From Thraustochytrium sp. TN22 (lineage: Eukaryota > Sar > Bigyra > Thraustochytrida > Thraustochytriidae), in assembly GCA_013306675.1 (NCBI GenBank), contig JABLUY010000054.1, positions 96,797-160,796 on the forward strand: a stretch of 64,000 nt of DNA, given 5' to 3'. Positions 12,095 through 26,596 of the stretch are shown piece after piece. Position 1 is the stretch's first letter, and every line of letters starts with the position of its first letter. Below the pieces are notes generated by a model. The model did not search any database and was not told where the DNA came from. It saw only the letters and a program-made list of their open reading frames with translations. Made by a program: the position numbers and the translations under genes.

Positions 12095-12807
12095 CCCTTG
12101 CGCGCGTGCCTGTTCGCGCGCGCTCGTCTTGACCCAGCTTTAGCGACGCCTTCGGGCCGGCTTCGGCGCCGCAACGACGTCTCCTCGCCGCGGCATTGCA
12201 CGCGGTGCGCCTCGCAGCTCGGCGGGCTCGCGCCTCGGAGCTTCGCTTCGCGGCGCCCGCGCTTTGGGACCCGCTCGGGCTCCGCGCCCGAGCCGCCGCC
12301 GCTCCTCGCCTGCATAAATGCATTTCGCTGGCGGGGGCACCCTGCGCGCTCGCGGGTTGTCGGCGCAGGCCGGCCCGGCGCCCAAGCAGGGTATCCTTCG
12401 GCGGCGCGGGGCGGACTCCGCGGGTGCCCCCGGGGCAGCGCGCGAGTCGCGCGGCCGCCGGGCCAACCTCGCCCGCCGCGTGCCGTACGGCGGGGCGCAC
12501 GAGGAGGTTCGCCCGGCGCCGGAACGCGGCGCGCGCCCCCGGCCTGGCGCCGTCCAAAATGCTCGATGGTCGGCGCCATTGCTTCCGTCGTGCCCGAGCG
12601 CGCGGCGCGCGGCGGCGGGCATTGCGGCATCGCGGCGGGGCGCAGAGGCAGCGGCGGCGGCAGGCAGCGCAGGCGCCGAGCGGGCGAGCGAGAGCGTCCG
12701 GCGAGCGTCGCTCGTGCGCGTGGCGTCGCAGGCAGGCAGGCAGGCAGGCAGGCGGGCAGGCTTTGGTCGCTCCGGTCTCGCTCGTGGAGGACCTCGCGCA
12801 GGAGAAG
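12095..12807. promoter_or_regulatory. 5' region of the transketolase gene with (GGCA)n
   Basis: GC-rich 713 nt without a convincing gene. A TATA-like GCATAAAT lies at about 12312. Six to seven GGCA copies plus a variant lie at 12728-12760, 47 nt before the transketolase ATG on the sense strand. Confidence 0.45.
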
Positions 12808-14883
12808 ATGGGCGAGCCCGCGACGAAGCGCGCCAAGACGGCGGACCCCGAGCTGGATGCGGCGTGCATCGAGTCGATCGGGTTCCTGAGCGTGGACCAG
12901 GTGCAGGCGGCGAACTCGGGCCACCCGGGCGCGCCCCTGGGCATGGCCACCATGGCGTACGCGCTGTGGAGCAAGTGCCTCAAGTACAACCCGGCGAACC
13001 CGAAGTGGTGGAACCGTGACCGCTTCGTGCTGTCGAACGGGCACTCGTGCGCGCTGCAGTACAGCATGCTGTACCTGACGGGCTACGCGCGGCCGACGCT
13101 GGACGACCTCAAGGCGTTCCGGCAGCTGGACTCGGTGACGGCCGGCCACCCGGAGAACGAGCTGCTGGAGGGCGTGGAGGTGTCGACGGGCCCGCTGGGC
13201 TCGGGCATCAGCAACGCCGTGGGCCTGGCCATGGCCTCGGAGCACATGGCGGCGGAGTTCAACGAGGAGGGCTTTGACCTCTTCGACAACTACACGTTCG
13301 TGTTCACGGGCGACGGCTGCATGCAGGAGGGCGTGGCGTCCGAGGCGTGCTCGCTGGCCGGCCACCAGAAGCTGGGCCGGCTGATCGTGCTGTACGACGA
13401 CAACAAGATCTCGATCGACGGCGACACGGCCGTGGCCTTCACGGAGGACGTGGCGAAGCGCTTCGAGGCGTACGGCTGGCAGGTGCTCGAGGTGGCGAAC
13501 GGCAACTCGCGCGACCCGAGCGAGCTCATCAAGGCCATCGAGGAGGCCAAGGCGTGCAAGGACAAGCCGTCCTTCATCAAGGTGAGCACCATCATCGGCT
13601 ACGGCGCCTCCAAGCAGGGCACGGGCGACGTGCACGGCGCGCCGCTCGGCACGGACGAGATCAAGCGCATGAAGAAGGAGCTTGGCCTCGACCCGGAGAA
13701 GACCTTTGACGTGCCGGAGAACGTGCTGGAGCACATGCGCCAGGCCCAGGAGCGCGGCGCCGAGGCCGAGGCCGAGTGGCAGAAGCTGCTCGACGAGTAC
13801 ACGGCCAAGTTCCCGGAGAAGGCGGCGGACCTGAAGCGCCGCTTCGCCCGCGAGCTGCCCGAGGGCTGGGAGGCGAAGCTTCCCAAGTGGACCCCGGAGG
13901 ACAAGGCCACCGCCTCGCGCGCCAGCTCGGGCGTCGTGCTCAACGCCATGGCGGACGCCATTCCGGAGATCGTCGGCGGCAGCGCCGACCTGACCGGCAG
14001 CAACAAGACTGCGCTCAAGAACGCCACGGACTTCCAGCCGGGCGCGCGCGGCGGCCGCTACCTGCGCTTCGGCGTCCGCGAGCACGCCATGTCGGCCGTG
14101 TGCAACGGCATCGCCGCCTACGGCTCGCTCATCCCCTTCGGCGCCACCTTCCTCGTCTTCGCTGGCTACATGCTCGGCTCCATGCGCCTCTCGGCCATCA
14201 GCGGCTTCCAGGTGCTCTACATTCTCACGCACGACTCGGCCGCCGTCGGCGAGGATGGCCCCACGCACATCCCCATCGAGATGCTCGCGTCGCTCCGCGC
14301 CATGCCCAACATGCTGGTGTTCCGCCCGGCTGACGCCAACGAGGTCTCGGGCTCCTACCGCTCCTCGCTGCTGTGCAAGCACGGCCCGTCGTCCATCGCG
14401 CTCACGCGCCAGGACCTGCCCAACCTTGCCGGCTCCGACGCCAACAAGGTTGCCCTCGGCGCCTACACCATCGAGCCTGTCGCGGACGGCTCCAAGCCGG
14501 CCATCATCATCGCGGCCACCGGCTCTGAGGTCGAGCTGGCCATCGAGGCTGCCAAGAAGCTCACCGCCGAGGGCACCCCGGCCGCCGCCGTCTCCATGCC
14601 CTGCTGGGAGCTCTTCGAGGAGCAGTCCCGCGCCTACCAGGAGGAGGTCTTCGTCCCGGGTGTGCCCGTGCTCGGCGTCGAGGCCGGCTGCACTCAGGGC
14701 TGGGGCAAGTACGCCCACTACACGCACGGCATCAACACCTTCGGCAAGTCTGGCCCTGGCGGCAAGGTCATGGAGCACTTTGGCTTCACCACGGAGAACG
14801 TCCTTGGTCTCGCCAAGAAGCTCATGGACCGCTACAAGGACACGCCGGCCCCTTCGCTGGTCGAGGCCCATGCCCTCATGTAA
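12808..14883 (+). CDS. Transketolase
   Basis: 691 residues from the ATG at 12808, a normal family length; upstream in-frame sequence is leader-like (GGCA repeats). The thiamine diphosphate site is present as GDG at 168-170 and Asn199 (YDDNKI). SGHPGAPLGMA, WNRDRFVLSNGH and TGPLGSG are typical of the N-terminal PP domain. The Pyr domain has the second signature GEDGPTHIPIEM, where the usual Gln after His is Ile. The C-terminal domain ends normally. The enzyme moves two-carbon units between sugar phosphates in the pentose phosphate pathway. Residues 4-11 read PATKRAKT, a c-Myc-like basic signal almost identical to the one on the neighbouring GST. No transit peptide is visible, so cytosolic and possibly nuclear. 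Confidence 0.96.
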   Translation: MGEPATKRAKTADPELDAACIESIGFLSVDQVQAANSGHPGAPLGMATMAYALWSKCLKYNPANPKWWNRDRFVLSNGHSCALQYSMLYLTGYARPTLDDLKAFRQLDSVTAGHPENELLEGVEVSTGPLGSGISNAVGLAMASEHMAAEFNEEGFDLFDNYTFVFTGDGCMQEGVASEACSLAGHQKLGRLIVLYDDNKISIDGDTAVAFTEDVAKRFEAYGWQVLEVANGNSRDPSELIKAIEEAKACKDKPSFIKVSTIIGYGASKQGTGDVHGAPLGTDEIKRMKKELGLDPEKTFDVPENVLEHMRQAQERGAEAEAEWQKLLDEYTAKFPEKAADLKRRFARELPEGWEAKLPKWTPEDKATASRASSGVVLNAMADAIPEIVGGSADLTGSNKTALKNATDFQPGARGGRYLRFGVREHAMSAVCNGIAAYGSLIPFGATFLVFAGYMLGSMRLSAISGFQVLYILTHDSAAVGEDGPTHIPIEMLASLRAMPNMLVFRPADANEVSGSYRSSLLCKHGPSSIALTRQDLPNLAGSDANKVALGAYTIEPVADGSKPAIIIAATGSEVELAIEAAKKLTAEGTPAAAVSMPCWELFEEQSRAYQEEVFVPGVPVLGVEAGCTQGWGKYAHYTHGINTFGKSGPGGKVMEHFGFTTENVLGLAKKLMDRYKDTPAPSLVEAHALM

Positions 14884-15521: not shown

Positions 15522-18035
15522 TCAAAAGACACTGTAAAAGTGCTTAAGGATCGACTTGCGCCACATGGCGCGCGCCGAGCTGTCCGCACGGGGCTCAGAG
15601 AGCAAGCTGCGGCGCACGATGACGATATTGCGGATCAGAGCGCAGAGAAAGAGGATGTGAAAGGTGGCAGCCGCCGCATCGATCATGAGCGTATGCAGCT
15701 CGGCGATGGACACGGCGCGGTCGCCGTAAGCCTCGAGCGCGAGTACGCGCCAATAAGCGCTGGCGAGCGTGTTGAGTAGATCGGCCGAGTTGGCGGCGAG
15801 GGCGACCCAAAAGTCAAAGACAGCAAATTGCGGGTGCACGGGAAAGTGCATAAAGCCCCAGACGAGGTAGGCGATCTGCACGGCCATGATCAAATGACCC
15901 AGGCGTGGGGCCTCGAGCGGGTGGTGCAGGGCGCGCGCACCCATGACGACGAGGCGCAGGCCGAGGTAGACCAGAAAGGCGAGGCTGTATTGCCAGGTGG
16001 TGGCGACAATGCGCGGGAGGCGCGAGGAGTCGAGGCAGCGGCGCTGCCACTTTTGGTTGTGCGGCCAGCGCACAAAGGTGTTGATGATGTGGACGCCCTC
16101 GCCGCAGGACTCCATGGCCGTGCCGATCGGCTCCGAGTTGATGTGGCGCACGTCGCCGGCGATGCAGAGACCATCGTTGCGGCCGCTGGGAAAGAGGTGC
16201 GCGCCGACCGGAACCGGGCCCTGCACGAGCGCTGGGAGCTGGCCAAGAAAGCCGCAGAGCGCGCCGGGCGTGTCGCGCGCGTCCGGGTCTGGGACGCCGG
16301 CGGCGACCGAGGGCGTGGTGCTGACGATCATGAGCGGGCCGTCGCCCGAGGTATCGAGCGTGATCTTTTGCGAGGGCGAGCGCAGCTGGACCACCTGGCC
16401 GCTGATGATGGGCTGCTTGGGGTCCATGTAAGGGAACCACTCGGCGTAGTCGGCGGCATGCGGCGGCGTCATGAGCTGGCCCTCGAGGCGCAGGTTGCCG
16501 AGCACGTGGACGGAGCGCGCGCTGAGGTCGCCCTCGATGAGGACGTCGCCCTTGACGACGAGGTTCTTGTCAAGCACGACAGTGTCACGCGCCGCCGCGG
16601 CCCGGGCGGCGTGCGCGGCCGCCATTGCGGCGTCCTCGTCCGCAGCGCCCCACGGGTCGGGGCCGCCAAAGTGTTGTGGCGGCTGGTGCTGGTGGGGCTG
16701 GTGCTGCTGGTGCTGGTGCCGCCGGCGTTGCTGCGGGCCAGGTCCGCCCGCGTTCGGGGGGCAATAGAGGCCCTGCGTCTGCGAGCCGAGGCTGCCGTCC
16801 GCGTACGGGTCCGCCGGACCGTGGCGCCCGACGTGGAAGGAGGCGGGCGGCACGGGCGGCGGCGGCGGCGGCGACGCGTAGGGTGAGGACTTGACAGTGT
16901 CGAGCAGCTTGCGCTTCTTGAGGCGCGAGGCGTGCGCGCGATCCGCGTGCGCCTGCGCCCCGCGCTCCGGCGCGTCGTCGGCGCTGCTGGCCGGCCAGAA
17001 CTGCACGAGCGAGGGCACGCCGTGGACAACAAAGGAGCGGCAGGAGGTCTTGGTGACGGGTTCGGAGGCGTCGCTGCGCTCCAGCAGGGTGTACCAGCGG
17101 CCCGCATAGCGGTGCTGGTGCGCCTCGTTGCGTTGGTTGCGCGACTTACGCGTCATGTTGCGCGCGACGAGCCCGCGGCGGAAGCCGTGCGCCTTGCTCC
17201 ACCAGATCTCGCCGTTGGAGAAGCCCTGGTACTTGACGGCCACGAGCTTGGCTGGGTCGCCCAGCAGCTCCTCCTTGGCGGCCTCGGGCAGGGTGTGCTT
17301 GAGGTCTGGCGCCACGTAAAAGAGCGGCACGTCTTGCGCGATGGGCGAGGCCTGCGGCCGCCGCGGCAGGCCGTCCGCGAACTGGCCCGCGCGCGACTTC
17401 CAGAGCAGCTCGAAGACCTCCTCCAGGTTGAGGCGCGCCACGGGCACGTTGGCCTCTGCCAGGGCGGCCGACCGCCGGCCCAGCGAGTCGGCGTCGTCCA
17501 CGTCGTCCTCGTCCGAGGACGACATGTTCGCGTACGCGCCGCGCGAGCCGGCCGGCGGCGTCGGCGAGATGGTCGCGTGCGCGCGCTGGCCGTCGTTCAC
17601 GGACGAGGGTGGGGACGCCACTGACGTGGATGAGGCCGAGCGCCCGCCCAGCGAGCTGGCCGACGTGGACGCGGCCGACGAGGTCTCTTCGCCGCCCGCG
17701 TCGCACCCTGCCGTCGCGCGGGCCGCGCTCGCTAGGTGGCCCTGGCCGCCGCCGCCGCCGCCGCCGCCGCCGCTGCCGCTGCCGTCGCCGCCGCCGCCGA
17801 GGCCGGGCCCACACCCGCAGGACGCCGCATCCAGGGGCGGGCCGGGGTCGGCCCAATCCATGAAGTCGAGCAGCAGGTCCTCGCCGTCCTCCTGCTTCAT
17901 CGCGCCGGCGCCGCTGCTGCCGCCCAGGCCTTCGCCGCCTTCCGCGTGCAAGGCGCTACTGCCGCTGCCGGCGCCGCTGCCGGCGGCCGAGAGCGGCTCC
18001 GCCACGTTCCGCCCCACGGCGCCGAGGCCTGCCAT
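15522..18035 (-). CDS. Membrane-anchored protein with phage-type autochaperone-like (Peptidase_G2/S74-like) domain; MYRF-like layout
   Basis: 837 residues from the ATG at 18035; the longer open frame starts only at TTG. Residues 1-200 are disordered, Gly/Ser/acidic-rich, with acidic KQEDGEDLLLDFMDW resembling an activation segment. Residues about 205-370 form a compact region of unknown type with basic clusters (NMTRKSRNQRNEAHQHR) and RLKKRKLL, a likely nuclear signal. Linkers rich in Pro, His and Gln follow. About 484-520 looks like beta-helical repeats (GDVLIEGDL, VHVLGNLRLEG). ADYAEWF (near 528-534) opens a domain resembling the Peptidase_G2 / intramolecular chaperone of phage tail proteins. 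From about 680 there are three to four membrane spans, then a basic tail. The order parallels the MYRF transcription factors, which cleave themselves from the ER membrane. DNA binding and self-cleavage are inference. Confidence 0.6.
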   Translation of the reverse strand: MAGLGAVGRNVAEPLSAAGSGAGSGSSALHAEGGEGLGGSSGAGAMKQEDGEDLLLDFMDWADPGPPLDAASCGCGPGLGGGGDGSGSGGGGGGGGGQGHLASAARATAGCDAGGEETSSAASTSASSLGGRSASSTSVASPPSSVNDGQRAHATISPTPPAGSRGAYANMSSSDEDDVDDADSLGRRSAALAEANVPVARLNLEEVFELLWKSRAGQFADGLPRRPQASPIAQDVPLFYVAPDLKHTLPEAAKEELLGDPAKLVAVKYQGFSNGEIWWSKAHGFRRGLVARNMTRKSRNQRNEAHQHRYAGRWYTLLERSDASEPVTKTSCRSFVVHGVPSLVQFWPASSADDAPERGAQAHADRAHASRLKKRKLLDTVKSSPYASPPPPPPVPPASFHVGRHGPADPYADGSLGSQTQGLYCPPNAGGPGPQQRRRHQHQQHQPHQHQPPQHFGGPDPWGAADEDAAMAAAHAARAAAARDTVVLDKNLVVKGDVLIEGDLSARSVHVLGNLRLEGQLMTPPHAADYAEWFPYMDPKQPIISGQVVQLRSPSQKITLDTSGDGPLMIVSTTPSVAAGVPDPDARDTPGALCGFLGQLPALVQGPVPVGAHLFPSGRNDGLCIAGDVRHINSEPIGTAMESCGEGVHIINTFVRWPHNQKWQRRCLDSSRLPRIVATTWQYSLAFLVYLGLRLVVMGARALHHPLEAPRLGHLIMAVQIAYLVWGFMHFPVHPQFAVFDFWVALAANSADLLNTLASAYWRVLALEAYGDRAVSIAELHTLMIDAAAATFHILFLCALIRNIVIVRRSLLSEPRADSSARAMWRKSILKHFYSVF

Positions 18036-18397
18036 GCAGTCGACCGCGCCGCCGCCGCTCGCGCCGCCGCGCCCAGTCGCGCCTCGCTGCCGCGCCGCGC
18101 TCGGGTCTGCCTGCCTGCCAGCCAGCCTGCCGCCGCGCGCCCCGCGCCTGCCGGCCGCGCGCCTTGCGCTTTGCCGCCGACGTCGCGCGCCGCGTGCGAG
18201 CCGCGCCGCGGACTTCTGCGCCCGCGCGGCTCGGGTCAGGGGGGCTCTGCGGCCGCGGCCGGGCCGGCCGCCGCCACGTCGCGCGCCTCGCAAGTCGGAG
18301 TTCGTAACTACGAATGGGCACGAAGAAAAGCAAACTCCTGCGCTGCGCCTGCGATCAAATCAGTCAAATCAGCTGGCAGATCAGATCGCCTGGCTGG

Positions 18398-18429
<32 letters not shown>

Positions 18430-20764: not shown

Positions 20765-23700
20765 ATGGGGTCGTTTGAAAAGGGCGAGTACGTGTTCATC
20801 CCGGATGAGGAGCACTGCTACGTGCCGGCGCAGGTGACGACGGCGTTCCAGGCCGGCAAGGCCGGCGTCGTGTCGCTGGTGTCGAGCGGGCGCCAGGTGC
20901 GCATCACGGGCGCGATGAGCGCCAAGGTGGTGCGCATGGACAAGCAGAGCCTGCGGCGGTGGCCCGACATGGTGGTGCTGAAGCAGCTGGACAACGCGGC
21001 GCTCCTGCACAACATTCGCGAGCGGTACAAGCACGACGAGATCTACACGAGCATCGGGTCGATCCTCATCAGCGTGAACCCGTACAAGCTGGTGATGGAG
21101 CTCTTCAACCAGGACGTCCTGGACCGGTACATGCAGAGCGGGTCGGCGCTGAGCTCCATGGACCCGCACATTTACGGCATCGCGGAGCACGCGTACGTAA
21201 GCATGATGGAGGATGACGTGGACCAGAGCTGCATCATCACGGGCGAGTCGGGCGCCGGCAAGACCGAGGCGACCAAGCTGTTCCTGGCGTATATTGCGGA
21301 GCGCAGCCGGCGTCAGCGGCGCGAGCGCAGCATGTCCGCGGATGAGCAGGAGCAGGCGTCGGCGCTCAACGTGCCGCTGCGCGAGCAGATCCTCGAGGCC
21401 AACCCGCTCATGGAGGCCTTTGGCAACGCCAAGACGGTGCGCAACAACAACTCGTCGCGCTTCGGCAAGCTCATCGACGTCAAGTTCGCGCACCGGCTGG
21501 GCTGCGTGGCGGGCGGCGAGATCACCAACTACCTGCTCGAGAAGAGCCGCGTCGTGAGCCACCTCGAGGGCGAGCGCAGCTATCATGTGTTTTACCAGCT
21601 GTGCGCCGCCGCCACGCGGAGCTACGCCGACTACAAGGACAAGTACGGCCTCATGGACGCCACCGAGTTCTACTACCTGAACCAGTCGCAGACGCCGTCC
21701 ACCATGGTGGACGACATGGACGACGCCTCTCTGTGGGAGGAGACCTCGCGCGCCATGAAGTCGCTCCACGTGACCGACGAGCAAAAGGAGGATGTCATCC
21801 GCGTGCTGGCCGGCATTCTCCACCTGGGCAACATCGAGTTCGAGCCCATCAGCGCCAAGTCGGACTTTGCCAAGGTCAAGAACCGCGCCTCGCTCGAGCA
21901 GGCGGCCTACCTCTTCGGCGTCGACGTGGAGGCGCTGGAGCGCGGCCTGCTCACGCGCGACATCTCGAACCGCGTCGAGCGCGTCATCCAGAAGCACAAC
22001 GTCCGCGAGGCCAACGACTCGCGCGACGCCCTCGCCAAGCACACGTACTCGCGCCTCTTCAACTGGCTCACGGGCTGCATCAACGCGGCGCTGCGCAGCC
22101 GCATGGACCGCGTCAGCTACGACGACGTCCGCACCATCTCGGTGCTGGATATCTTCGGCTTTGAGTCCTTCACGGTGAACTCCTTCGAGCAGCTGTGCAT
22201 CAACTACTGCAACGAGAAGCTCCAGGGCTTTTTCAACGACCACATCTTCAAGCTTGAACAGGAGGAGTACCGCCGCGAGGAGATCGACGTCACCCAGATC
22301 GGCTTCTCCGACAACCAGGGCGTCATCGCGGCCATTGACCACCGCTCCGAGGGCATCTTTGCCATCTGCGACGACGAGGTCAACCTGCTGCGCGGCACGG
22401 ACGACGGCTTCCTCAACAAGGTGCGCTCGGCCGCCAAGCAGGCTGCCAAGAAGGCGGAGCAGTTCGAGGCCGAGCAGGCGGCGCGCATCGCCGCCGGCCT
22501 GGCGCGGCCCGCGCTGACCGACGGCGACGCCGCAGAAGAGGACGAGCCCTCGGACGCCGGCGCCGCCAAGGGCCCGCGCAAGGGCAGCCTGCACAGCCTG
22601 CGCAAGATGAGCCGCGCCGCCGGCGCCATGCTGCGCGGCGCGGCCGGCGGCTCGGCGGCCGTGGCGGACTCCGGCAAGGTCGTGCTCAAGGAGCCCAACG
22701 TCAAGGAGATGCGCTCCAACCCGAACGCGCGGTCCTCCTTCATCGTCGTCCACTTTGCCGGCGAGGTCATGTACAACACTGTGGGCTTCCTCGAGAAGAA
22801 CCGCGACACGCTGCGCAACGACCTGGTCGAGGTCATCAACTCGACGGAGGTGGACCTGGTCAGGGAGCTCTTCGAGGTGGACGACATCCCCACCAACGGC
22901 GGCGGCAGCGCGCGCAAGGCCAAGGTGAACCGCAAGACGCTCGGCCGCAAGTTCCAGGAGCAGCTCGACGCCCTCATGCTGCGCCTCAACGTGACGGAGC
23001 CCCACTTTGTGCGCACCATCAAGCCCAACTCGCAAAAGGTGCCGGACTTCTTCGAGGCGCCCCTCGTGCTCGATCAGCTGCGCTACGCCGGCCTGCTCGA
23101 GGTGTGCCGCATCCGCCAAATGGGCTACCCGATCCGCAAGGACCACGACGACTTTTTCCACCTCTTCCGCTGCATCCGCCCGGACGCCGCCGACGTCTTC
23201 GAGCTCATCCAGCTGCTCCACGCCGACGGCGCGCTCTACGGCACCGAGTGGCAGCGCGGCAAGACCAAGATGTTCATGCGCGCCGCCCAGTACGACCGCC
23301 TCACCAACCTGCGCGAGGACGCGCTGCGCGGCGTCGTCACGCTCATGCAGCGCACCGTGCGCGGCTACGTGGCCCGCACCCGCTACCGGCGCGTGCGCGA
23401 CGCCTTCAAGGACCTCGAGCGCGGCATCGCCAAGCGCGACCGCTCCATCCTCGAGGTGGCCATCCCCTTCGCCGCCTCCCTTCCCAACGCCGGTCGCAAT
23501 GTGGCGCTCATCGAGCGCTCGCGCCGTGTGCTGGCGGAGATCAAGCAGGAGGATGAGCTCCTGGCCGCGCTCGAGCTGGCCGTCGAGGCGCGCGACGTCG
23601 ACGCGCTCCCGGGCCTGGTCGAGTCGGCCGAGCGCATGAACGTGGCGGACCGCCCCATCGTGGACCGTGCCTGCCGCCTGCTGGACGAGTACCACGAGCA

Positions 23701-26596
23701 GCAGGCCGCCACGACGGCGCTGCAGCGCGCCATCGAGTCCCGCGACCTCGCGGCGCTGGCCGCCGCTTTGGCTGTCGCCGACAAGCTGGGCCTCGGCGCT
23801 TCCAACGAGGCGCGCACGGCGCGCGCACTCCTGGACCGCCTCGAGGAGCAGACGCGCCTCGTCGAGGAGCTCGAGGACGCCATCGCGCGCAAGGACGTGC
23901 GCGCCATGGAGGATCTCGTGCAGGCGCTCGTGGACCTGGGCGCCGGCGACCACGAGGCCGTCAAGGAGGCGCAGCGCCTCACCAAGAAGATCGCGCAGGA
24001 GTCCAAGGCGCGCAAGGAGGCGCTCGCGCGCCTCGAGCGCGACGCGCGCGATGCCATCCAGAGCCGCGACCTGGAGCAGCTCGACGCCGTGCGCATCCGC
24101 ATCGCTGAGCTCGGCGCCAAGGGCGAGCCCTTTGATGAGGTGCTGCGCCTGCGCGAGGAGCTCCAGGAGCGCCACGGCATCCTGCACCGCCTCACCATCG
24201 AGATGGGCCTCCTCGGCAGCCGCTCGCGCAACCTCGACGGCATCGAGGAGGAGGACCTCGACCCGCTCCTGGACGCCCTGCAGACCGCGCGCTCCCACGG
24301 CTTCAACGAGGACAACGAGCCCGAGGTCAAGGCGGCCTCCGACTTTTTTGCGCGCATGCAGCGCCAGCTCCAGGTGCAGCAGCAGTTGCGTGACGCGCTC
24401 GAGGAGAACACCTTCCCGGCGCTCCTCGCCGCCCTTCTCGCCGCGCAGAGCCTCGGCATGGAGACGGCCGACGCGCGCAAGGTCGCCGCCGAGGTGCGCC
24501 AGCTCGACCGCATCCGCATGGCGCTCGACCGCCTCGACACGCGCCGCGCGCGCGAGCAGCGCGCCGCCCTTCTGCGCTACGCCACGCCCGAGGAGCGCGA
24601 CGAGCTCGATCGCGACCGCATCCAGAACATGGACTCGGACGAGTACGAGGAGCTCAAGGCGGACGCGGAGGCCAACCACGGCGACCGCTTCCAGCTCAAG
24701 AACTTTTGGCGCCTGCGCGCCGACGAGGACTACGTCGAGAACCTGGCGCCCAGCGAGCGCAACCGCGAGGCTGACATGAAGCTCTGGTCCTCGCGCAACG
24801 TCATTCCCAAGTCGCTCACCGAGCTCGACGAGGACCAGGAGGTCATCGCGCTGCGCGTCAACCACGCGCTCCTCCAATTCTGCGGCGACATGGGCGGCAC
24901 GCACTCGGCCAGCCTCATGCAGTACATAGTCGTGCGCGGCCTCGAGGACCCGCGCATCGGCGACGAGGTCATCGTGCAGATTGTCAAGCACCTGCGCGGC
25001 AACGTCATCCCGCAGAGCGAGCACAACGCCTGGCTCCTGCTGTGCGCCGTCACCAAGTACTTTGGCCCGTCCGAGCACCTCGCGCCCTTCTTCGTGAACT
25101 TCCTCCTGGAGAACCGCTCGCGCCCCAGCCTCATTGGCAACTTCGCGCGCCTCTGCCTGGCCCAGACCGGCCCGTCCATGGCGCTCGGCCCCTCGCTCTT
25201 CAAGCCGTCCACCGACGAACTCGCGCAGTACAGGCAGCGTCCGCCCGTGCTCATGTCCATCAACATCGTGGACGGCACCACTGTGACGCTCCCGTGCAGC
25301 CCGGACCAGCGCATCGAGAGCATCCACAAGCTCGTGCGTGCCAAGACCGGCATCCTCGACGCCGTGCACCGCCCGGCCTACGCCATCTTCATCAAGGACA
25401 CCTCGCAGACGTCCAACGATGACCTGCGCGACCGCCTCATCAAGTTCTTCAAGTACTACAACACCTCCAAGCTCGCGCACATCGAGACCTTTGTGTCGTT
25501 TTGGCGCGGTCGCGAGGACGAGCTCTTCCGCCTCCTGCGCGACAAGTACGGCGAGGAGCCCAGCAAGTTGCACAGCGAGACTGCCAGCGTCGGCAGCTCC
25601 ACGCGCGCCTCCACGCGGTCCGTCGGCATGCGCATGCCTATCACGGCGGCGCGCGCCGCCACCAGGCTCATGCGCGTCAACCACGTGCCGCCCAAGGCCG
25701 GCCCGCCGCCGCAGGCTGCCTGGCCGCTGCCCTACTGGGTGTACCCGGGCGCCGTGTACCAGAACTTGGCCAAGCAGGAGCGCGAGCCGCAGTTCTTTTT
25801 CAAGCGCCGCTTCATCCCGGACAAGGGCCGTGCCGACATGCAGCTCTTCCAGCAGGTCAAGATGGACGTCGAGTCCGGCCTCCTCACCATCACCAGCCTG
25901 CAGGACGTCGCCGAGCTCGCGGCCATTGCCGTTGCGCTCGAGAGCGAGACCAGCCTCGACATGAGCGATCCGGACGAGCTCCTCGACGCGGACCTTGGCC
26001 GCTTCATCCCGAGCACCTGGCTGCGCGACCACTCCGCCGAGTCCATCGCCGTCACCATCGCCAACGAGGTCGACCTCGGCTCGGCGGGGCCCCAGCAGCT
26101 GCGCCAGCGCTACGTCGACATTGCCTCCACCGCGCCGGCGTTCGGCATGGCGCTCTTTTACGCGACGCGCGGCGACACGGACAGCAACGCGCAGTACGTC
26201 ATTGGCGTGGACCAGCGCGGCGTGCACATCCTCGACTCGCAGCGCTCCACCATCGTGCGCTCCTTCCCCCTCAAGGCCATCAAGAAGTTCGGCGCCACCT
26301 CGTCGGTCTTCTGGATGAAGGTCAAGAAGAGCGCGCTCAAGCAGACGGAGCGCGACTCGCGCCGCTTCGGTGGCGTCAAGCCCAAGGACATCAAGGGCGA
26401 GACCGCTGGCGCGGCCGGCGGCGGCTTCTCCTTTTTGCGCAAGGATGGCTTCGACGTCGTCCTCAACACGCTCCAGGCGTGGGAGATTTACGACATCATC
26501 TTCGATCTGCGCAAGGTTCAGACCGCCAAGGACCAGGCCGCGCTCGCGCAGGCCCCGGCTGCGACCCCTCTCCGTGCCCGCAGTGTGCGTGTCTAA
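20765..26596 (+). CDS. Unconventional myosin with MyTH4-FERM tail
   Basis: 1943 residues in one uninterrupted exon from the ATG at 20765. The motor domain has the P-loop GESGAGKT (160-167), switch I NNNSSRFG (227-234) and switch II DIFGFE (462-467). The family-typical LRYAGLLEV is present. An insert of about 80 residues, basic and Ser-rich (KKGPRKGS-like composition, about 557-639), occupies the actin-binding loop 2 region. One IQ-type motif follows (about 860-885). Then come six or so degenerate helical repeats of roughly 45 residues built around an AI..RD...L pattern (about 885-1280), a MyTH4 domain (about 1300-1475) and a FERM domain (about 1480-1935). MyTH4-FERM myosins carry membrane or microtubule-linked cargo and build actin protrusions; ATPase residues look intact. 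The class is not assigned. Confidence 0.93.
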   Translation: MGSFEKGEYVFIPDEEHCYVPAQVTTAFQAGKAGVVSLVSSGRQVRITGAMSAKVVRMDKQSLRRWPDMVVLKQLDNAALLHNIRERYKHDEIYTSIGSILISVNPYKLVMELFNQDVLDRYMQSGSALSSMDPHIYGIAEHAYVSMMEDDVDQSCIITGESGAGKTEATKLFLAYIAERSRRQRRERSMSADEQEQASALNVPLREQILEANPLMEAFGNAKTVRNNNSSRFGKLIDVKFAHRLGCVAGGEITNYLLEKSRVVSHLEGERSYHVFYQLCAAATRSYADYKDKYGLMDATEFYYLNQSQTPSTMVDDMDDASLWEETSRAMKSLHVTDEQKEDVIRVLAGILHLGNIEFEPISAKSDFAKVKNRASLEQAAYLFGVDVEALERGLLTRDISNRVERVIQKHNVREANDSRDALAKHTYSRLFNWLTGCINAALRSRMDRVSYDDVRTISVLDIFGFESFTVNSFEQLCINYCNEKLQGFFNDHIFKLEQEEYRREEIDVTQIGFSDNQGVIAAIDHRSEGIFAICDDEVNLLRGTDDGFLNKVRSAAKQAAKKAEQFEAEQAARIAAGLARPALTDGDAAEEDEPSDAGAAKGPRKGSLHSLRKMSRAAGAMLRGAAGGSAAVADSGKVVLKEPNVKEMRSNPNARSSFIVVHFAGEVMYNTVGFLEKNRDTLRNDLVEVINSTEVDLVRELFEVDDIPTNGGGSARKAKVNRKTLGRKFQEQLDALMLRLNVTEPHFVRTIKPNSQKVPDFFEAPLVLDQLRYAGLLEVCRIRQMGYPIRKDHDDFFHLFRCIRPDAADVFELIQLLHADGALYGTEWQRGKTKMFMRAAQYDRLTNLREDALRGVVTLMQRTVRGYVARTRYRRVRDAFKDLERGIAKRDRSILEVAIPFAASLPNAGRNVALIERSRRVLAEIKQEDELLAALELAVEARDVDALPGLVESAERMNVADRPIVDRACRLLDEYHEQQAATTALQRAIESRDLAALAAALAVADKLGLGASNEARTARALLDRLEEQTRLVEELEDAIARKDVRAMEDLVQALVDLGAGDHEAVKEAQRLTKKIAQESKARKEALARLERDARDAIQSRDLEQLDAVRIRIAELGAKGEPFDEVLRLREELQERHGILHRLTIEMGLLGSRSRNLDGIEEEDLDPLLDALQTARSHGFNEDNEPEVKAASDFFARMQRQLQVQQQLRDALEENTFPALLAALLAAQSLGMETADARKVAAEVRQLDRIRMALDRLDTRRAREQRAALLRYATPEERDELDRDRIQNMDSDEYEELKADAEANHGDRFQLKNFWRLRADEDYVENLAPSERNREADMKLWSSRNVIPKSLTELDEDQEVIALRVNHALLQFCGDMGGTHSASLMQYIVVRGLEDPRIGDEVIVQIVKHLRGNVIPQSEHNAWLLLCAVTKYFGPSEHLAPFFVNFLLENRSRPSLIGNFARLCLAQTGPSMALGPSLFKPSTDELAQYRQRPPVLMSINIVDGTTVTLPCSPDQRIESIHKLVRAKTGILDAVHRPAYAIFIKDTSQTSNDDLRDRLIKFFKYYNTSKLAHIETFVSFWRGREDELFRLLRDKYGEEPSKLHSETASVGSSTRASTRSVGMRMPITAARAATRLMRVNHVPPKAGPPPQAAWPLPYWVYPGAVYQNLAKQEREPQFFFKRRFIPDKGRADMQLFQQVKMDVESGLLTITSLQDVAELAAIAVALESETSLDMSDPDELLDADLGRFIPSTWLRDHSAESIAVTIANEVDLGSAGPQQLRQRYVDIASTAPAFGMALFYATRGDTDSNAQYVIGVDQRGVHILDSQRSTIVRSFPLKAIKKFGATSSVFWMKVKKSALKQTERDSRRFGGVKPKDIKGETAGAAGGGFSFLRKDGFDVVLNTLQAWEIYDIIFDLRKVQTAKDQAALAQAPAATPLRARSVRV

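Follow-up and report, generated by a model that had tools for sequence, protein, structure and literature searches.

A Predicted Membrane-Tethered Transcription Factor with a Peptidase_G2-Type Domain in Thraustochytrium sp. TN22

The window considered here is a stretch of 64,000 nucleotides from Thraustochytrium sp. TN22 (GenBank assembly GCA_013306675.1, contig JABLUY010000054.1, positions 96,797 to 160,796 of the forward strand). Its minus strand carries a gene for a protein that is probably a membrane-tethered transcription factor, able to release itself through a Peptidase_G2-type (G2) domain in a design like that of MYRF but assembled from other parts. This reading rests on a conserved domain order, on the profile kinship of the G2 domain, on the conservation of its cleavage motif, and on a confident model of a middle domain which aligns best with DNA-binding domains. 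MYRF is described as a founding member of those transcription factors that a phage-type chaperone domain cuts from the membrane (PMC3742443); trimerisation by this domain leads to self-cleavage, after which the N-terminal trimer enters the nucleus (PMC3742443, PMC8326128). A first-pass annotation of the same DNA had proposed a MYRF-like design with other parts, and a G2-type domain does lie between the putative DNA-binding domain and the predicted membrane spans.

The proposed mechanism starts from an integral membrane protein whose N-terminus would face the cytosol. Three chains would assemble into a trimer by way of the stalk and the G2 domain, and the folded G2 domain would use E532 to cut its own chain at A528|D529. 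The freed trimer would carry the activation region, the NAC/CG-1-like domain, the basic signal, and the stalk into the nucleus, while the G2 domain would remain on the membrane.

The Gene Family

Residues 190-837 were compared with the 7993 candidates sharing most words, and twelve proteins matched at E ≤ 0.01. In 11 of them both the middle domain and the G2 region align, whereas in P0013 the alignment is confined to the G2 region. Scans of the organism's own assembly (37.9 Mb, 453 contigs) gave three loci with both domains, namely, the window gene and loci on contigs C76 and C287, and four paralogs with the middle domain and without G2 (two on C124, one each on C52 and C105). The 11 outside proteins and the two further loci have the same order of middle domain and G2, with identities of 29-47%. 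The resulting 14-row alignment holds 65 invariant columns: 21 in the middle domain, two at the stalk end, and 42 in the G2 domain. The open reading frame (ORF) at 15522-18035 is real beyond chance, as the middle domain and G2 recur in relatives with their order kept. It has no internal stop from the ATG at 18035; because the frame stays open upstream as far as 18293, the first ATG is only provisionally taken as the true start.

Among the 11 outside relatives, four come with a printed organism: one from Hondaea fermentalgiana, two from Mucochytrium quahogii, and one whose record starts “Aplano,” taken as Aplanochytrium. All three genera are placed by NCBI in Thraustochytrida, Labyrinthulomycetes. 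The source record of the Hondaea relative (P0002) calls it an F-box/WD repeat protein; most of its sequence aligns to the family, weak WD-type matches are N-terminal, and it is perhaps a fused gene model. Three of the paralogs without G2 (L009 and L014 on C124, L013 on C52) have C-terminal regions that are similar by eye, and no Pfam family matched them above the cut-off.

The G2 Domain and Its Cleavage Motif

Peptidase_G2 (PF11962) matches the window protein with an E-value of 6.6e-4 and 19.6 bits, under the Pfam cut-off of 25, and Peptidase_S74 has no match at E ≤ 1. The profile search that the first-pass annotation had proposed thus found the G2 family, below threshold, and not S74. The match is limited to the first part of the model; the phage insert comes next, and the family does not have it. 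Sub-threshold G2 matches were found in eight of the nine outside members scanned with Pfam, the exception being P0011; P0013 gave no Pfam G2 match, and the own-genome loci on C76 and C287 matched at E 0.065 and 0.084. For P0005, PF11962 is listed among the precomputed domains, yet the protein scores 24.3 bits in this analysis. A hand-written family consensus reaches 28.5 bits (E 1.2e-6) and, its undecided positions having been chosen by hand, is used as supporting evidence only.

Comparison by hhalign of 13 family domains with eight phage G2 domains gave a score of 47.4 and a probability of 91.7 over 112 columns (profile columns 17-138 of 177). This score exceeds those of all 90 shuffles, which reached at most 21.0 for 30 column shuffles and 30.0 for 60 block shuffles. 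The kinship of the family domain with the phage G2 domain is clear, and its earlier assignment to the G2 rather than the S74 type stands. The additional proposal of a phage derivation fared less well. With the G2 region as tblastn query, 50,697 phage records yielded no match at E ≤ 0.1, and a viral-contig scan produced 51 pattern matches, none of them confirmed. Prokaryotes supplied the nearest G2 relatives found, the searches being biased by the patterns used. Among 21 prokaryotic domains, 17 come from Peribacteria/Peregrinibacteria and one is archaeal. These domains score 113.9 over 144 columns, in a set gathered with the family as query. The kinship with the phage domain does not amount to phage descent. 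As a separate observation, residues 1132-1277 of a 1343-residue PDB chain named P22 (8h2i_cU) match the phi29 G2 domain with E 7.4e-6; 8h2i is presumably a chlorovirus capsid entry, so giant viruses may have G2 domains too.

The cleavage motif reads A528-D529-Y-A-E532, and all 14 members share its D, Y, A, and E together with F534; D and E are also kept in all eight phage domains. The corresponding motif of phi29 gp12, TWS-DFAEYF, has its D at 692 and its E at 695. Four PDB entries of this protein end at S691 and two begin at D692, while 3suc spans the junction with Q at 695, where the full-length 6qz9 has E. Self-cleavage of phi29 gp12 at this motif was reportedly described by Xiang and colleagues in 2009, and the roles assigned to Asp (after the cut) and Glu draw on the PDB chain ends. 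Ser precedes D in none of 13 aligned members, Ala being present in 12 and Cys in one.

The Putative DNA-Binding Domain

The middle domain is modelled confidently by AlphaFold (pLDDT 89.9), and the best structural alignment of the model is with NAC, followed by SSR4 and WOPR. These three and CG-1 form a published group within the WRKY-GCM1 clan (PMC9252788), for which a helix plus five-strand fold was used as the criterion. The middle domain likely belongs to this group; the new DNA-binding fold that had been suggested for it probably gives way to a known one, though not beyond doubt. CG-1 is the sole echo at the sequence level, with hhalign probabilities of 23-26 over the N-terminal half, above all controls. 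None of the 18 middle-domain members matched Pfam CG-1 (PF03859), Pfam NAM (PF02365), or NDT80/PhoG, hhalign against three NAC sequences gave nothing, and NDT80/PhoG found nothing at E ≤ 1 in the window protein. The LGFP repeat (PF08310), a 53-residue repeat, was considered and rejected: it stayed below the cut-off in five of the 18 members and matched 17 residues of the window protein. A separate canonical CG-1 (CAMTA-type) domain is encoded elsewhere in the genome (L016, G000:C411:94228-94572, 93.9 bits).

Other Regions of the Protein

The features of the protein are collected in Table 1. Several of them had been noted at first pass and are borne out: the acidic N-terminus (24 D/E against 8 K/R), the RLKKRKLL signal, the ADYAEWF motif with its D at 529, and several predicted membrane spans. 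The beta-helical stretch is borne out in part; the repeat at about 484-526 is present in the sequence and suggests a beta-helix, but in the AlphaFold monomer model the stalk has low confidence. The stalk also matches a phage tail fibre weakly (E 0.094). The N-terminus contains DLLLDFMDWADPGPPLD at residues 53-69, echoed by DMLMDLIDWTGGPPFHG in Hondaea P0002. A basic cluster lies between the middle domain and G2 in nine of 14 members and inside the middle domain in four more, and that of C287 stands solely after G2.

A hydropathy window with a cut-off of 1.5 gives three spans (685-703, 715-733, and 783-801). AlphaFold places helices at about 661-704, 712-730, 735-769, 777-812, and 819-836, four long ones covering about 661-812, mostly at pLDDT 68-91. 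A membrane anchor of three to four spans is predicted after the cleavage domain, as in MYRF. By a simple hydropathy window, 12 of the 14 members run on past G2 into at least one hydrophobic segment; P0010 and P0012 stop before it.

Table 1: Features of the gene and its predicted product (window coordinates).
Feature	Residues	Position	Strand	Basis
Whole ORF, 837 aa, first ATG at 18035, stop at 15522	1-837	15522..18035	-	Reading frame, family alignment
Acidic Gly/Ser-rich N-terminus, probable activation region	1-195	17451..18035	-	Composition
Middle domain, putative DNA-binding, NAC/CG-1/WOPR type	~200-350	16986..17438	-	18-member alignment, AlphaFold, VIA, CG-1 profile signal
Low-complexity linker	353-480	16596..16979	-	Sequence
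RLKKRKLL, basic cluster resembling a nuclear localisation signal (NLS), putative function	371-378	16902..16925	-	Sequence
Short repeat stalk, presumed trimeric	484-526	16458..16586	-	Sequence repeat
A528|D529, predicted self-cleavage point, counterpart of phi29 gp12 S691|D692	528-529	16449..16454	-	Alignment
Peptidase_G2-type domain, D529 and E532 invariant	529-658	16062..16451	-	Pfam, alignment, profile comparison
Predicted membrane helices (3-4)	680-812	15600..15998	-	AlphaFold model, hydropathy

Alternative Explanations

Some observations temper the reading as a self-releasing transcription factor. Regarding the DNA-binding part, the structural alignment of the middle-domain model has Z < 8 and a Foldseek search with it gave no match, and for these reasons its group membership is likely and not proven. 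Regarding the cleaving part, the long phage insert between the two G2 halves is missing from the family, and the G2 domain is poorly modelled as a monomer. These latter points would suit a membrane transcription factor whose G2 domain merely trimerises, with release by another protease or none. Such a protein is unlikely: all 14 members keep the D and E of the cleavage motif, although 40 other G2 columns are invariant too, and MYRF, according to PMC3742443, likewise does without the extended loop of the K1F ICA domain and still cuts.

It is improbable that the protein is a trimeric one of the cell surface or secretory pathway, like many phage and perhaps prokaryotic G2 proteins, with a middle domain that does not bind DNA. 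A phi29-type G2 match was obtained in 114 phage records, and the names of the 30 listed are appendage, tail, neck, head, depolymerase, peptidase G2, or hypothetical; the 21 prokaryotic G2 ORFs are without annotation and measure 242-1552 aa, several being ended by the locus edge; and S74 domains occur in the own genome, in ORFs that look secreted or are very long. The acidic N-terminus, the NLS-like clusters in most members, and a model nearest to DNA-binding domains oppose this view. The S74 matches elsewhere in the genome number five (G000:C193, L045 and L048; C256, L046; C444, L047; C310, L049). Two of them share an open frame 12,830 codons long, in which the stretches read abound in short Ser/Gly/Ala repeats, and the C256 match sits in a secreted-looking protein. 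No contig that holds one of the five has a middle-domain match.

A true MYRF ortholog diverged past recognition would have its functional parts in the same order, as in the published description of MYRF, but is highly improbable, for the S74 ICA domain with its Ser-Lys dyad and NDT80 were both sought and neither matched, A-D-Y-A-E stands where S74 has its Ser-Lys motif, and the middle domain aligns best with NAC and not with NDT80. Because both defining domains are unmatched, the protein is not a MYRF and the likeness is one of design.

With self-release through G2 remaining the favoured reading, the evidence leans towards a second, independent instance of the MYRF principle, in which a stramenopile lineage joined a NAC/CG-1-type factor, a prokaryotic/phage-type G2 maturation protease, and membrane helices. 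If true, trimeric self-cleaving chaperones would be a repeatable way to release transcription factors, and a multi-copy family of NAC/CG-1-type domains would be added to the thraustochytrid-like lineage. It would also be, to our knowledge, the first G2 domain in gene regulation; such a protein is not described in the open-access literature searched, which omits most subscription papers.

Genomic Context

The neighbouring genes, both on the plus strand, encode a transketolase (Pfam matches within 12799-14883) and a myosin with MyTH4 and FERM domains (20765-26596). Eight tandem GGCA units occupy 18396-18427 of the plus strand, upstream of the gene in its presumed promoter region. ARAGORN found no tRNA in the window.

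Comparison with Known Systems

The animal and amoeba proteins MYRF and MrfA have an activation region, a DNA-binding domain, a beta-stalk, a self-cleaving trimeric chaperone, and a membrane anchor (PMC3742443, PMC8326128), an order of parts that the window protein is predicted to share. The parts themselves differ: a NAC/CG-1-like domain would replace NDT80, a G2 domain (Asp/Glu) stands in place of S74 (Ser/Lys), and three to four membrane helices are predicted instead of one. With Peptidase_G2 (PF11962) of the phi29 gp12 pre-neck appendage, the family shares the DxAExF cleavage motif, the later GQ motif, and the position after a repeat stalk, whereas its own G2 is without the phage insert, precedes membrane helices, and has prokaryotic nearest found relatives. 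Plant membrane-bound NAC factors (NTLs) tether a NAC-type DNA-binding domain to the membrane and are released by separate proteases; here, in contrast, the cutter would be built in, and no NAC match is found at the sequence level. The CG-1 domain of CAMTA shows a weak profile likeness over the N-terminal half of the middle domain, and the canonical CG-1 protein of the same genome is distinct from the protein described here.
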